64,000 bases of DNA from an uncultured Erysipelotrichaceae bacterium (GTDB lineage: Bacteria; Bacillota_I; Bacilli_A; Erysipelotrichales; Erysipelotrichaceae): the NCBI GenBank assembly GCA_947569705.1, contig CANOSP010000009.1:1-64000 (forward strand), read 5' to 3'. Under the pieces are notes generated by a model. The model ran no database searches, was not told the DNA's origin, and saw only the letters and a program-made list of their open reading frames with translations. Shown here one piece after another: positions 6,744 through 11,902 of the stretch. Position numbers and translations under genes: made by a program. Numbering within the stretch: position 1 is the stretch's first letter; every line of letters starts with the position of its first letter.

Positions 6744-6816
6744 ATAACTTGTAAAAATCTGCATGCGTGCTGTTTAAAGCGCATTAATTGAAATAAGCTA
6801 GGAAGGAGGCGCTGTG

Positions 6817-7890
6817 ATGGATAAAATACGTATTAATATGCTGTCAAGTGCCGATAAAGTAGACGGTCAGGGAGTAGGAAGCGCCTATTTAGAACAAGTG
6901 AATTTAATCAAGGAAGGTGCGAAAGATTTGTTTGATGTCACGATCAACGGTTCTTCCGATTGTGATATTCAACATATTCATACGGTAGATCCGCAAAATT
7001 ATTTAAAGTTGAAAGCAAGCAAGGCTGCGAATGTCTGCTATGTGCATTTCTTGCCGGATACACTGGACGGCAGTATTGAACTGCCGAAGGTTATTTTTAA
7101 AATATTTAAAAAATATGTAATTGAATTATATAAAAGCGCTGATTATTTAATTGTTGTAAATCCGATTTTTATGGATGCCTTGGCACAATACGGAATCAAA
7201 AGAGAAAAGATGGTTTATATACCGAATTATGTGTCTAAAGATGATTTCTATCGCAAAGATGATGAAACCGTTAAGGCATTAAAAAAGGAATACGGGATTG
7301 ATGAAGATGCCTTTGTCGTAATCGGTGTCGGACAAGTACAGACACGCAAGGGTGTACTTGATTTTATAGAGGTGGCAAAGCAGATGCCGGACATCACATT
7401 TGTATGGAGCGGCGGCTTTTCTTTCGGAAGGATCACTGACGGATATGAGGAATTAAAGAAAATCGTTGATCATCCCCCGAAAAATGTTAAATTTTTAGGA
7501 ATTATTCCGCGAGAAAAAATGAATGATATTTATAATATTGCCGATCTTTTATTTATGCCGTCCTATAATGAATTATTTCCGATGTCAATCTTAGAAGCTG
7601 TCAATCTTCATAAACCGCTGGTATTGCGTGATTTAGAGCTTTATGAGGATATTTTATTTCATAAGTACGCAAAAGGGCATACCAATGAGGAGTTTGTACA
7701 GCGGATTCGAGCTTATCAAGAAAATCCTGAACAATATCAGCTGGGAGCGCATATGTCGCAGGAAATCAGTGAATATTATTCAAAAGAAAATGTATTACAA
7801 ATCTGGATTGATTTTTATACCAAAGTACATGAAGAGCATCTTCAAAAGGAAAAGAAGCGCCAAAAGCGCAGAATAAGAAAACAACGCTGA
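6817..7890 (+). CDS. Glycolipid glycosyltransferase, CpoA/LafB-like (GT4)
   Basis: 357 residues, GT-B fold. The N-terminus 'INMLSSADKVDGQGVGSAYL' closely follows streptococcal CpoA and lactobacillal LafB, which add the second sugar to monoglycosyl-diacylglycerol. The C-terminal half has the UDP-sugar region 'GVGQVQTRKGVLDF' and 'MPSYNELFPMSILEA' with the EX7E glutamate. The basic C-terminus (KKRQKRRIRKQR) suggests membrane-surface attachment. ATG 6817 is 7 nt behind GGAAGGAGG. First of four tightly spaced genes, the third of which is the LafA-like enzyme for the first sugar, so together they should make a diglycosyl-diacylglycerol, the usual LTA anchor. Confidence 0.82.
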   Translation: MDKIRINMLSSADKVDGQGVGSAYLEQVNLIKEGAKDLFDVTINGSSDCDIQHIHTVDPQNYLKLKASKAANVCYVHFLPDTLDGSIELPKVIFKIFKKYVIELYKSADYLIVVNPIFMDALAQYGIKREKMVYIPNYVSKDDFYRKDDETVKALKKEYGIDEDAFVVIGVGQVQTRKGVLDFIEVAKQMPDITFVWSGGFSFGRITDGYEELKKIVDHPPKNVKFLGIIPREKMNDIYNIADLLFMPSYNELFPMSILEAVNLHKPLVLRDLELYEDILFHKYAKGHTNEEFVQRIRAYQENPEQYQLGAHMSQEISEYYSKENVLQIWIDFYTKVHEEHLQKEKKRQKRRIRKQR

Positions 7891-7919: not shown

Positions 7920-8981
7920 ATGAAAACAGATTCAAAACGATATGTCTTGAATTTCCTGCTGATTATCGGTTTTACAATCATTGTGTTATGGTTTTCGTTA
8001 AAAGATGATTATCGAAATATTGTGAATCAATTAATCGGTGTGCCGTGGTATTGGTTAGTAATCATCCTTTGTTGGGGATTATTATATAACTGTATTATTG
8101 CATGGATTTATAAGACATTCGGAAAAAAGTATAAGAAAGATTACAATAATATCGAAGCGCTTGAAAATGCTTTTATCGGTACGTTTTTCAGCGGTATTAC
8201 GCCAAGCGCCACCGGGGGACAATTCGGACAAGTATACATCATGAAAAAACAGGGAATTAAAGTTAGTGATGCGGCAAGTTTGTTATGGGCGGATTTCATT
8301 GTTTATCAAACAACCATGATGATTTATGTGACAATCCTATTTGCGTTGGTATTCGCAGATGTTTATGAAAAAAATGCCTTTTTTCTGTTAGTGTTCTTCG
8401 GCTATCTTGTAAATTTCTGTGTTATCGGCGCACTTTGGACGATGGCACTGTTTCCCAAGGCTTTTGTGAAGCTGAGTCAGTGGGGCGTGATTTTATTATG
8501 TAAGCTGCACATTATTAAAAATCGTGAAGCAACACTTCATGCATGGACCGTTCAAATTGAAGCATTTACTTGTGAGATTAAGCGACTGAAGAAGGATAAG
8601 CGTTTGATCATTAAGACAGTATTCATCAATGTTTTGCGCTTAACTATGCTATATTCATTACCGTATGTTGTTTGTTTGGCAATCGGACAGCCGCTGCCGC
8701 TTTCTTTGTTGGCAACGGTAATTGCTATGTCAAGTTTTGTGACAATGGCCAATACGTTTATTCCGATACCGGGCGCAAGCGGCGGAACCGAATGGGCATT
8801 TGTCGCTATTTTCTCCGGCATTATCGATTCGACACTGGCAAAAAGTGTGATGATCTTGTGGCGTTTTTCAACCTATCATTTTGTGATGGTTGTCGGCGGT
8901 TTGATCTTTGTTTATGCAAAAAGAAAATATGATAAACAAAAATATATACAAGCAGAAACTGTTCATTTGATGGATGAATAA
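7920..8981 (+). CDS. UPF0104/YbhN-type flippase-like membrane protein
   Basis: 353 residues with about eight membrane helices. The family (lysylphosphatidylglycerol synthase membrane-domain/AglD2-like) shows in 'GTFFSGITPSATGGQFGQ' and 'IPIPGASGGTEWAFVAIFSG', two conserved glycine-rich loops. No synthetase domain is attached, so it is not a full MprF. Lying between two glycolipid glycosyltransferase genes, it probably handles or flips the glycolipid, but no activity is proven for this subgroup. ATG 7920 is preceded by GTAGGTGAAAAT; it is separated from its neighbours by 29 and 13 bp. Confidence 0.8.
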   Translation: MKTDSKRYVLNFLLIIGFTIIVLWFSLKDDYRNIVNQLIGVPWYWLVIILCWGLLYNCIIAWIYKTFGKKYKKDYNNIEALENAFIGTFFSGITPSATGGQFGQVYIMKKQGIKVSDAASLLWADFIVYQTTMMIYVTILFALVFADVYEKNAFFLLVFFGYLVNFCVIGALWTMALFPKAFVKLSQWGVILLCKLHIIKNREATLHAWTVQIEAFTCEIKRLKKDKRLIIKTVFINVLRLTMLYSLPYVVCLAIGQPLPLSLLATVIAMSSFVTMANTFIPIPGASGGTEWAFVAIFSGIIDSTLAKSVMILWRFSTYHFVMVVGGLIFVYAKRKYDKQKYIQAETVHLMDE

Positions 8982-8994
8982 GGAGGGATGCAGG

Positions 8995-10983
8995 ATGCGG
9001 ATAGGACTTTTTTCGGATACCTATACACCGGATATCAACGGTGTTGTATCATCTATTGTGACGCTGCAGAAGGAATTGGAGAAGCGCGGGCACGAGGTGT
9101 TTGTTATTACAAATCACAAGGCTTTTTTAACAACGCAGCGAGAGGGCAATGTACTGCGTCTGCCCGGCTTGGAATTAAAATGGCTGTACGGCTATAAGCT
9201 GACAACACCTTATCATTTCAGTGCGCGTGATGAAATCAGAAAAATGAATTTAGATGTGATTCATGTACATACCGAATTCGGCGTCGGGATGTTCGGACGC
9301 ATCGTTGCCAAATATTTAAACATTCCGGTAGTTTCTACTTATCATACCATGTATGAGGACTATACGCATTATATCAACCGCTTTGCGATTGATGAGGTAG
9401 AATTATTAAGCAAAAAGTTTGTGACGACGTTTTCCCGCATGTTGTCAGATAATGTACATGCGGTAATTGCCCCGAGTGAAAAAACGAAAGAAACACTTGT
9501 GAAATACGGAGTAAAAACCCCGATCTATGTCATTCCGACGGGATTAGAGCTTGATCAGTTTGATCAAAATCAAATCGATCAGGAACAGGTATTAAAGCTC
9601 AGAGATGAATACGGTTTGAAAGAAGATGATCAAGTAATTATCTTTGTCGGCAGAATTGCCAAGGAAAAAAGTATTGAATTGCCGATTGAGGGATTTCGTT
9701 ATATCAGCGATCCTCATGTAAAATTGATGATTGTCGGCGGCGGTCCGCAGTTGGATGAATTAAAGCGGCTTACTGAACAATATGGGATCAGTGATAAAGT
9801 CATTTTTACCGGTCCGAAACCGCGCACGGAGGTTCCGTATTATTATGCTTTGGCAGATGCTTTTGTATCAGCTTCTTTGACCGAAACACAGGGTATGACT
9901 TATATTGAAGCACTCGCTTCAAACTTACCGGTATTTGCACGTCCCGACGATGTCCTTACCGATCTTGTGATTGAGGGAGACAGCGGTTATTTGTTTGAAA
10001 CTGCACAAGCATTTGCGCAAAAGGTAGAAACATTTTTTGCTTTAACACCGGAACAACGCGATGCTTTATGTGTAAATGCACGTGCTAAGGTGAAGCCGTA
10101 TGACGGCAATATGTTCTATACAAAAGTGATGAGTGTCTATTATCAGGCAATCGAGGATTTTGAGGATTCTTATGAAGTAATTAAGATTAAATCCGCCGAT
10201 GATTTTATGCGTATTTATGTCATCAATGATAAAGAGGACGAGCCGATAAAAATCACCATTTCACTGGATGATTATTTTACTTTAAAAATACAGAAGCATA
10301 CGCTGTTGGATCGCAATACGGTGAACGAGCTTCAGCACAAAGAACGCCTGCTTCATGCACATCGTCTATGTATCCGCAAGTTGAGTATGCGTGATTATAC
10401 GACCAAAGAAATGCGTCTTTATTTAAAAAATCAGAAACTGATTGAGGATAAGGAAATCGATCAGATTATAAATGATTTGATTCAAAAGGGATATTTGAAT
10501 GATTATCAGTATATGATGAATAAGATCGATAAAATGCAGTATTCGCTTCAAAGCAAAGGCAAGATTATTCAATCTTTGGTGGAGAAAGGAATCGCCCATG
10601 AGGATGTGGCAAATGCATTGGCGCAATATGATGAAGCAGAAGAGCGTGTCAAGGCAGTGAAATTGGCAGAAAAGCTGAAATCAACCGTGAAGGATAAATC
10701 ATTAAGCATGAAGCGCAAGGTGATAGCGCAAAAGCTTGTAAGACAGGGATTTGAAAGTAATGTGGCATATCATGCGAGTGAATCCTTAAACTTTGAGGAA
10801 GAGGATGATCAAAGTGCGCTTCGAAAAGCGATGAAAAAGGCAATTCGCACCAATCAAAGAAAGTATCAAGGCAATGAGCTGCGTAATCGAGTGGTTCGCA
10901 CTTGTATTCAAAAGGGTTTTAAAAGCAGCGATGTATTGTCCTTAATAGATGAAATGGAGTGGCAGAATGAAGAAATGGATTAA
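8995..10983 (+). CDS. Fusion: LafA-like diacylglycerol glucosyltransferase + RecX
   Basis: 662 residues with two unrelated modules in one uninterrupted frame. Residues 1 to ~385 are a GT4 enzyme ('MRIGLFSDTYTPDINGVVSS', 'GRIAKEKSIELPIEGF', 'SASLTETQGMTYIEALAS') like LafA/1,2-diacylglycerol 3-glucosyltransferase. Residues ~395-662 are a complete Firmicutes-length RecX: a beta-rich start ('VIKIKSADDFMRIYVIND'), then three-helix repeats ('LSMRDYTTKEMRLYLKNQKL', 'DQIINDLIQKGYLNDYQYM', 'IQSLVEKGIAHEDVANAL'). RecX inhibits RecA filaments, so the pairing is unexpected. ATG 8995 is 7 nt after AGGAGGG. The stop overlaps yhaM. No ribosome site precedes an internal start, so a separate RecX product is unlikely. 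Confidence 0.85.
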   Translation: MRIGLFSDTYTPDINGVVSSIVTLQKELEKRGHEVFVITNHKAFLTTQREGNVLRLPGLELKWLYGYKLTTPYHFSARDEIRKMNLDVIHVHTEFGVGMFGRIVAKYLNIPVVSTYHTMYEDYTHYINRFAIDEVELLSKKFVTTFSRMLSDNVHAVIAPSEKTKETLVKYGVKTPIYVIPTGLELDQFDQNQIDQEQVLKLRDEYGLKEDDQVIIFVGRIAKEKSIELPIEGFRYISDPHVKLMIVGGGPQLDELKRLTEQYGISDKVIFTGPKPRTEVPYYYALADAFVSASLTETQGMTYIEALASNLPVFARPDDVLTDLVIEGDSGYLFETAQAFAQKVETFFALTPEQRDALCVNARAKVKPYDGNMFYTKVMSVYYQAIEDFEDSYEVIKIKSADDFMRIYVINDKEDEPIKITISLDDYFTLKIQKHTLLDRNTVNELQHKERLLHAHRLCIRKLSMRDYTTKEMRLYLKNQKLIEDKEIDQIINDLIQKGYLNDYQYMMNKIDKMQYSLQSKGKIIQSLVEKGIAHEDVANALAQYDEAEERVKAVKLAEKLKSTVKDKSLSMKRKVIAQKLVRQGFESNVAYHASESLNFEEEDDQSALRKAMKKAIRTNQRKYQGNELRNRVVRTCIQKGFKSSDVLSLIDEMEWQNEEMD

Positions 10984-11902
10984 TGAACTTTGTGACGGTG
11001 AGCGTTTGTGGTTAGAGGTTTTATTAAACGACGTAAGCCGCGGCATTACCAATAAGGGCGCACCGTATTTGAATTTTGTCATTCAGGATAAGACGGGGAC
11101 AATGGAAGCGAAATACTGGAGTGTGAGTGAAGAAGAACTACACTTATATAAAAGCGGTATGTATGTCAAACTCAAGGGCGATGTGATCAACTACAAGGAT
11201 CAGCTTCAGCTGCGTGTTCTGCAAATTCAGGATGACAGTGAAAATCCGCATGATGTACGCGATTATGTACGCAGCGCTCCGGTGGATAAAGCGCAGATGA
11301 AGGAGCGCATTCAGCTTTATATTTCATCGATTCAAAATCAGGATATTAAGAGATTGTGTGAAGCTGTTCATCTTCAACATGAGCGAGATTTCTATGATTA
11401 TCCGGCTGCCGCAAAGAATCATCATGATTTTGCGGGCGGTTTGGCGGCACATGTGCTTGGTATGATGGAGTTGGCAAAGCAAGCATGCGTACTGTATCCG
11501 TTCTTGGATCAGGATTTATTGATCGCCGGTGTGTTCCTGCATGACATCGGAAAGCTGATCGAATTGAGCGGTCCTATCGCAACCGAATATACGATTGAAG
11601 GAAAGCTGTTGGGACATATCTCGATTATGCAGGCAGAGCTTGCGAAAATCGCTGATCAGCTCGATATTCCGAATGAGACGGCAGTTTTATTACGCCACAT
11701 GGTTCTTTCTCACCATGGTGAATATGAATACGGTTCTCCGGTTTTACCGATGTTGCCTGAGGCGGAAGTATTAAATATGATTGATAATTTAGATGCACGA
11801 ATGAATGCACTTCAGAAAGCATTGGATCGCACAAAGGACGGAGAATTTACGGCGCGTATCTTTTCAATGGAAAACCGCAGCTTTTATAAAGTAAAAAAAT
11901 AA
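10967..11902 (+). CDS. yhaM: 3'-5' exoribonuclease YhaM
   Basis: 311 residues. An N-terminal OB-fold nucleic-acid-binding domain (to ~residue 85, 'GAPYLNFVIQDKTGTMEAKY') is followed by an HD hydrolase domain with 'NHHDFAGGLAAHVLGMM' and the metal motif 'FLHDIGKLIEL'. This is the YhaM layout, an Mn-dependent exonuclease acting on RNA ends and single-stranded DNA. ATG 10967 behind GGAGTGG lies inside the end of the RecX-fusion gene (17-bp overlap), so translation is coupled. A terminator follows. Confidence 0.9.
   Translation: MKKWINELCDGERLWLEVLLNDVSRGITNKGAPYLNFVIQDKTGTMEAKYWSVSEEELHLYKSGMYVKLKGDVINYKDQLQLRVLQIQDDSENPHDVRDYVRSAPVDKAQMKERIQLYISSIQNQDIKRLCEAVHLQHERDFYDYPAAAKNHHDFAGGLAAHVLGMMELAKQACVLYPFLDQDLLIAGVFLHDIGKLIELSGPIATEYTIEGKLLGHISIMQAELAKIADQLDIPNETAVLLRHMVLSHHGEYEYGSPVLPMLPEAEVLNMIDNLDARMNALQKALDRTKDGEFTARIFSMENRSFYKVKK

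Follow-up and report, generated by a model that had tools for sequence, protein, structure and literature searches.

A RecX protein fused to a glycolipid-synthase-like glycosyltransferase across the order Erysipelotrichales

We analyzed a 64,000-nucleotide stretch of DNA from an uncultured Erysipelotrichaceae bacterium, hereafter the window, in which the gene at 8995-10983 on the plus strand encodes a single protein of 662 amino acids, composed of a GT4 glycosyltransferase (residues 1-388) followed by RecX (residues 391-662). The gene runs uninterrupted from ATG 8995 to TAA 10983. The upstream limit of the same frame is an ATG at 8974; we took ATG 8995 as the start because the ribosome-binding site AAGGAGG (8980..8986, +) lies immediately 5' of it and relatives begin at that site, where their genes carry strong ribosome sites (median -8.6). 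Immediately downstream, yhaM, encoding a 3'-5' exoribonuclease (10967..11902, +; NF010007, 388 bits), adjoins the gene in both fused and unfused relatives. Its ATG at 10967 lies inside the fused gene, giving the overlap that the first-pass annotation had pointed out, 17 nucleotides long, or 35 with the alternative ATG at 10949. Upstream are the genes for a flippase-like membrane protein (LPG_synthase_TM; 7920..8981, +; PF03706, E 4e-40; TIGR00374) and for a second GT4 enzyme resembling IagA/BgsA, a glycolipid anchor glycosyltransferase (6814..7890, +; NF053513, 174 bits, below the cut-off of 460).

The GT4 module (8995..10158, +) resembles alpha-monoglucosyldiacylglycerol synthase. It matches PF00534 and PF13439 (E 1e-34), and its best-scoring curated family by far is that of the alpha-monoglucosyldiacylglycerol synthases (NF049988), with 280 bits over residues 1-388; as the curated cut-off of 400 is not reached, we name the module only alMGS/LafA-like. 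The GT4 (GT-B) fold is indicated by Pfam and by fold comparison, in which MshA and BshA are among the GT4 enzymes matched by the whole-protein model. The EX7E motif of retaining GT4 enzymes (E297-x7-E305; 9883..9909, +) is also present, both glutamates being invariant among 24 aligned fused proteins. Together with the purifying selection described below, these features support the earlier description of this half as a LafA-like GT4 enzyme.

RecX, known in small and soluble form, restrains DNA-recombination filaments. The RecX module of the window protein (10165..10980, +) is of full length, since its match to NF010733 covers model positions 4-264 of 267, at 121 bits; the cut-off of 240 is reached by no sampled genome of the class among the matches listed. 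Strands predicted at residues 393-423 make up the beta-rich N-terminal part, so the earlier reading of a complete, Firmicutes-length RecX including this part holds. Pfam places RecX_HTH1 and HTH3 above cut-off and does not detect RecX_HTH2 in the window protein. In a model of RecX alone (pLDDT 90), the three tandem three-helix repeats are present, and the best match to a solved RecX is 3d5l (TM 0.83 over 208 columns). Most conserved RecX positions are kept, including L495, D503, L528, G585 and G641, whereas positions 510, 520 and 545 are relaxed in the fused proteins, which may account for Pfam missing HTH2. The window genome encodes RecA, and the fused RecX is its sole RecX; the separate recX that the first-pass annotation had proposed looking for was not found in this genome. 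Weak extra RecX matches in two relatives (G023 and G415) seem to be chance hits or debris, and RecX matches in the phage records searched were distant only, in Listeria and Enterococcus records.

Strong purifying selection acts on both modules, with dN/dS in close pairs of about 0.04-0.14 for the glycosyltransferase and 0.01-0.13 for RecX. At matched rpoB divergence, fused and stand-alone RecX are conserved to a similar degree (for instance, identity 0.30 versus 0.27 at 65-70% rpoB identity). Moreover, RecX is retained in genomes in which the glycosyltransferase was lost or has decayed (G010, G067, G029, G032 and G021).

The Erysipelotrichales are gut-associated Gram-positive bacteria. Among 118 relatives searched, RecX was matched in 108 genomes of this order, in its families f1 and f2, and in 99 of them it lies inside an open frame of 620-794 amino acids and is thus fused; this count was taken from a table of frame lengths, the remaining nine frames being shorter. 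Both families carry the fusion, with named carriers including Longicatena, Amedibacillus, Dielma, Traorella, Merdibacter, Holdemanella, Faecalicoccus, Absicoccus, Erysipelothrix, Bulleidia, Breznakia, Thomasclavelia and Massilimicrobiota. The search across relatives suggested in the first-pass annotation therefore found the architecture throughout the order, rather than in one narrow lineage in which, as one of its alternatives had it, a merger could have become fixed. As the same architecture occurs in about 100 other genomes, the fusion in the window is real and not due to chance. The claim that one open frame joins the two modules is borne out, with no stop between them, and a frameshift at the boundary, one of the doubts raised at first, is excluded. 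An assembly or sequencing artefact that deleted a stop between two genes is refuted by these relatives and can be regarded as vanishingly improbable: single-contig assemblies, G057, G071 and G075 among them, share the uninterrupted frame and have a gap-free junction. One relative assembled in one contig (G101) does show two single-base gaps in homopolymer runs, and its broken glycosyltransferase was rejected as a real loss in favor of likely sequencing errors, but nothing of this kind is specific to the window genome.

The exceptions within the order are few. Contig ends cut the frame in G091 and G069, with glycosyltransferase sequence still attached. In G021 (L031:4296-5618, -), RecX shares one frame with a decayed glycosyltransferase whose catalytic half is lost, so RecX seems to be kept without glycosyltransferase activity. 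Five genomes are unfused (G010, G067, G029, G032 and G038). In the first four, the stand-alone recX (L034-L037) has a HAD-type hydrolase gene upstream in all cases, with a Pfam HAD match obtained for that of G029, and yhaM is still downstream. In G038 (L038:4426-6463, -), the glycosyltransferase and RecX are separate, overlapping frames, with the frame change near a run of seven A; a real split, slippage and assembly error are all possible. G040 keeps the glycosyltransferase without RecX, and G012 has neither module. Two further apparent RecX losses (G022 and G061) were dropped, as neither genome returned an rpoB candidate. Outside the order, every RecX among the matches listed for a class sample of 395 genomes occupies a frame of its own, about 230-320 amino acids long. 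A phylum sample likewise contained no fusion outside the order among the matches listed, all of them in the same class; one weak partial RecX match lies inside an unrelated long frame (G171).

The neighboring family f8, which the rpoB tree groups with f1 and f2 (support 99), carries an unfused, precursor-like operon. In 25 of its 30 genomes, one of them with a weak GT4 match, a GT4 gene lies directly upstream of recX and overlaps it, and yhaM follows recX directly in all 30. The f8 recX ribosome site, GGAGGT, typically falls within the GT4 codons for Glu-Val-Tyr, the tyrosine corresponding to position 382 in the fused protein. As the two f8 genes are in different frames, one small indel would fuse them. 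One f8 genus (g123; L276, L277, L278 and L279) has no GT4 gene before recX; there, a membrane protein resembling a flippase, with no NCBIfam match, overlaps recX, and yhaM is downstream. Within the order, the unfused genomes are nested among fused ones in rpoB trees (G029+G032, and G010+G067 with the fused G025), and are thus most simply explained as losses of the glycosyltransferase rather than as the ancestral state. The placement of f8 differs between trees, the glycosyltransferase tree joining it to f2 and the RecX tree to f1, and AU tests on rpoB rejected neither placement. One fusion, one fusion followed by a split in f8, and two fusions are all possible; the gap-free junction common to f1 and f2 favors a single fusion, without proving it. 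A side observation is that RpoB is about 1370-1430 amino acids long in f1 (e.g., L211 and L214) versus about 1230 in f2 (L184-L193), with an apparent insert in f1 between model positions ~220 and 365.

The junction, from the invariant Y382 to Y393 (10138..10173, +), is gap-free in 58 fused proteins and coincides with the site of the former recX ribosome site. In an AlphaFold model of the fused protein built on 24 relatives (pLDDT 86), only two residues separate the last glycosyltransferase helix (371-390) from the strand that opens RecX (393), and a flexible spacer is absent. Near the junction, the window gene lacks any in-frame start preceded by a ribosome site, nor is one conserved among relatives, being found in 8 of 58 fused genes, about the background rate. 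At the old recX site, the median anti-Shine-Dalgarno energy is -6.9 in 21 f8 genes versus -2.5 in the 58 fused genes (p 3e-7, not corrected for relatedness). The absence of an internal ribosome site noted at first is thus confirmed, and because the old site has eroded in the fused genes, RecX is probably made only within the fusion. It is unlikely, accordingly, that RecX is freed by an internal translation start or by proteolysis and that the fusion serves as an expression device only; a moderate ribosome-like site (-4 or stronger) at the old place does persist in 9 of the 58 fused genes, but the erosion relative to unfused relatives, the background frequency of in-frame starts and the modeled helix-to-strand junction without a loop argue against two products.

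A second glycolipid synthase is found beside recX in another part of the class. In families f7, f9, f13 and f18, 14 of 16 sampled genomes have a GT28 gene immediately before recX (e.g., L041:5901-7794, L087:4265-6182, L084:4971-6906 and L085:3485-5435), overlapping it by 11-47 nucleotides in most cases, whereas the f18 genes are 40 nucleotides apart. The four GT28 enzymes checked match diglucosyl diacylglycerol synthase of the UgtP/YpfP type (278-373 bits, cut-off 500) and also Pfam MGDG_synth. A UDP-glucose pyrophosphorylase gene lies two genes downstream in f7 and directly upstream of recX in one f9 genome. In sampled genomes of f4, f6, f11, f12, f14, f17 and f22, recX adjoins other genes. 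The presence of two unrelated glycolipid synthases beside recX suggests that this link did not come about by accident alone, although shared expression alone would suffice to explain it.

We conclude that the fusion is genuine and old and that selection maintains it. We consider it probable that it is a bifunctional single polypeptide, combining a lipid-enzyme GT4 with a working, sole RecX, and that it arose from overlapping genes fused by an indel. The GT4 module would glucosylate diacylglycerol at the inner membrane face, and the C-terminal module would be a working RecX, the only one in the cell, that limits and dismantles RecA filaments. A small indel in the overlap would have joined the overlapping, co-transcribed GT4 and recX genes, followed by yhaM, in a single frame; with decay of the old internal ribosome site, both activities would be made 1:1, with RecX carried by the lipid enzyme. 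The sequences show the fusion, its status as sole RecX, selection on both modules, the unfused precursor-like operon and the erosion of the internal ribosome site; the enzyme activities, RecA binding, membrane location and any benefit of the link we infer. Against this reading count the RecX score below the NF010733 cut-off, the undetected HTH2 and the relaxed positions 510, 520 and 545, as does the ability of members of the order to live without the fusion, G012 lacking both modules. The same weaknesses of HTH2 and of some RecX positions, together with the glycosyltransferase without RecX in G040, could suggest that the module now serves the glycosyltransferase as a structural or regulatory tail and has lost its action on RecA. 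We regard this as a rather slim prospect, because the module is the sole RecX in genomes that keep recA, retains most conserved positions, evolves at the rate of stand-alone RecX and outlives the glycosyltransferase in five genomes.

Why the fusion has persisted is a separate question. In a near-neutral merger, the modules would act independently and the fusion would persist only because a start, a stop and a ribosome site would all have to arise at once for a clean break. This concerns the cause of persistence and is compatible with bifunctionality, and we regard it as evenly balanced: GT4 and recX were already adjacent and overlapping, and the modules came apart more than once (G010/G067, G029/G032 and G038), with the glycosyltransferase decayed in G021, but such splits are rare across the order, although G038 shows that one frameshift can recreate overlapping genes, and the pairing looks favored, as another clade has recX beside a glycolipid synthase of an unrelated kind. 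The neutral merger raised in the first-pass annotation thus stands insofar as the genes came apart a few times, while the pairing with two unrelated synthases suggests a non-random association; persistence of the fusion may be largely historical. That same pairing, with GT4 fused or overlapping and GT28 overlapping, leads us to entertain functional coupling, in which a membrane-associated glycolipid synthase deploys RecX so that the shut-off of recombination and SOS follows envelope or UDP-glucose status, a proposal we hold as tentative and somewhat doubtful. Action of RecX at the membrane and a purpose for placing it there are conjectural, as is the tie to lipid status that the first-pass annotation suggested along with a membrane placement. 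In Bacillus subtilis, RecX acts in nucleoid foci with RecA threads (PMC3527212), and a membrane tether would need to permit this.

GT4 and RecX are each known families, while their combination appears to be a new domain architecture. In the searchable literature, which most subscription journals lie outside, we found no paper joining RecX with a glycosyltransferase, and the order-wide distribution, the precursor-like operon and the second pairing of a glycolipid synthase with recX were likewise absent from it. On a separate note, a Tn-seq nisin-resistance screen in Listeria lists recX, and the title of the paper presents LafA as a determinant of resistance (PMC8865564), possibly a coincidence. 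Nearly a whole bacterial order carries RecX built into a lipid enzyme, and if the module is functional, attachment to a glycolipid synthase does not prevent RecX from acting. Fused, overlapping and separate genes together constitute a natural experiment on whether control of DNA repair is tied to envelope synthesis. Gene calls in the order may also miss recX or name the fused gene after one half.

The fused protein can be compared with four known or related systems. With alpha-monoglucosyldiacylglycerol synthases (NF049988), it shares a match spanning the whole enzyme and the EX7E motif, and the neighboring second glycolipid-type glycosyltransferase and flippase-like genes add to the likeness to the alMGS/LafA type; it differs in its score (280 bits, cut-off 400) and in the added C-terminal RecX, and its substrate is putative. 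Firmicutes RecX, represented by the 264-residue RecX/YfhG of B. subtilis (PMC3527212) and the solved structures 3d5l and 3e3v, matches the RecX module over its full length, and the two have in common the beta-rich N-terminal part, the helical repeats, the fold (TM 0.83 to 3d5l), the conserved core positions and a single copy alongside recA. In contrast, the module sits behind a glycosyltransferase, its HTH2 signature is weak and it scores below the NF010733 cut-off. The f8 GT4-recX-yhaM operon (e.g., L090) contains these three genes in identical order with overlapping ends, except that GT4 and recX are separate, overlapping genes and the recX ribosome site lies inside glycosyltransferase codons. 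Finally, the GT28-recX pairs of UgtP/YpfP type resemble the fusion in that a glycolipid synthase immediately precedes recX, usually overlapping it, but the glycosyltransferase family is unrelated, the genes are unfused and yhaM is not directly beside recX.
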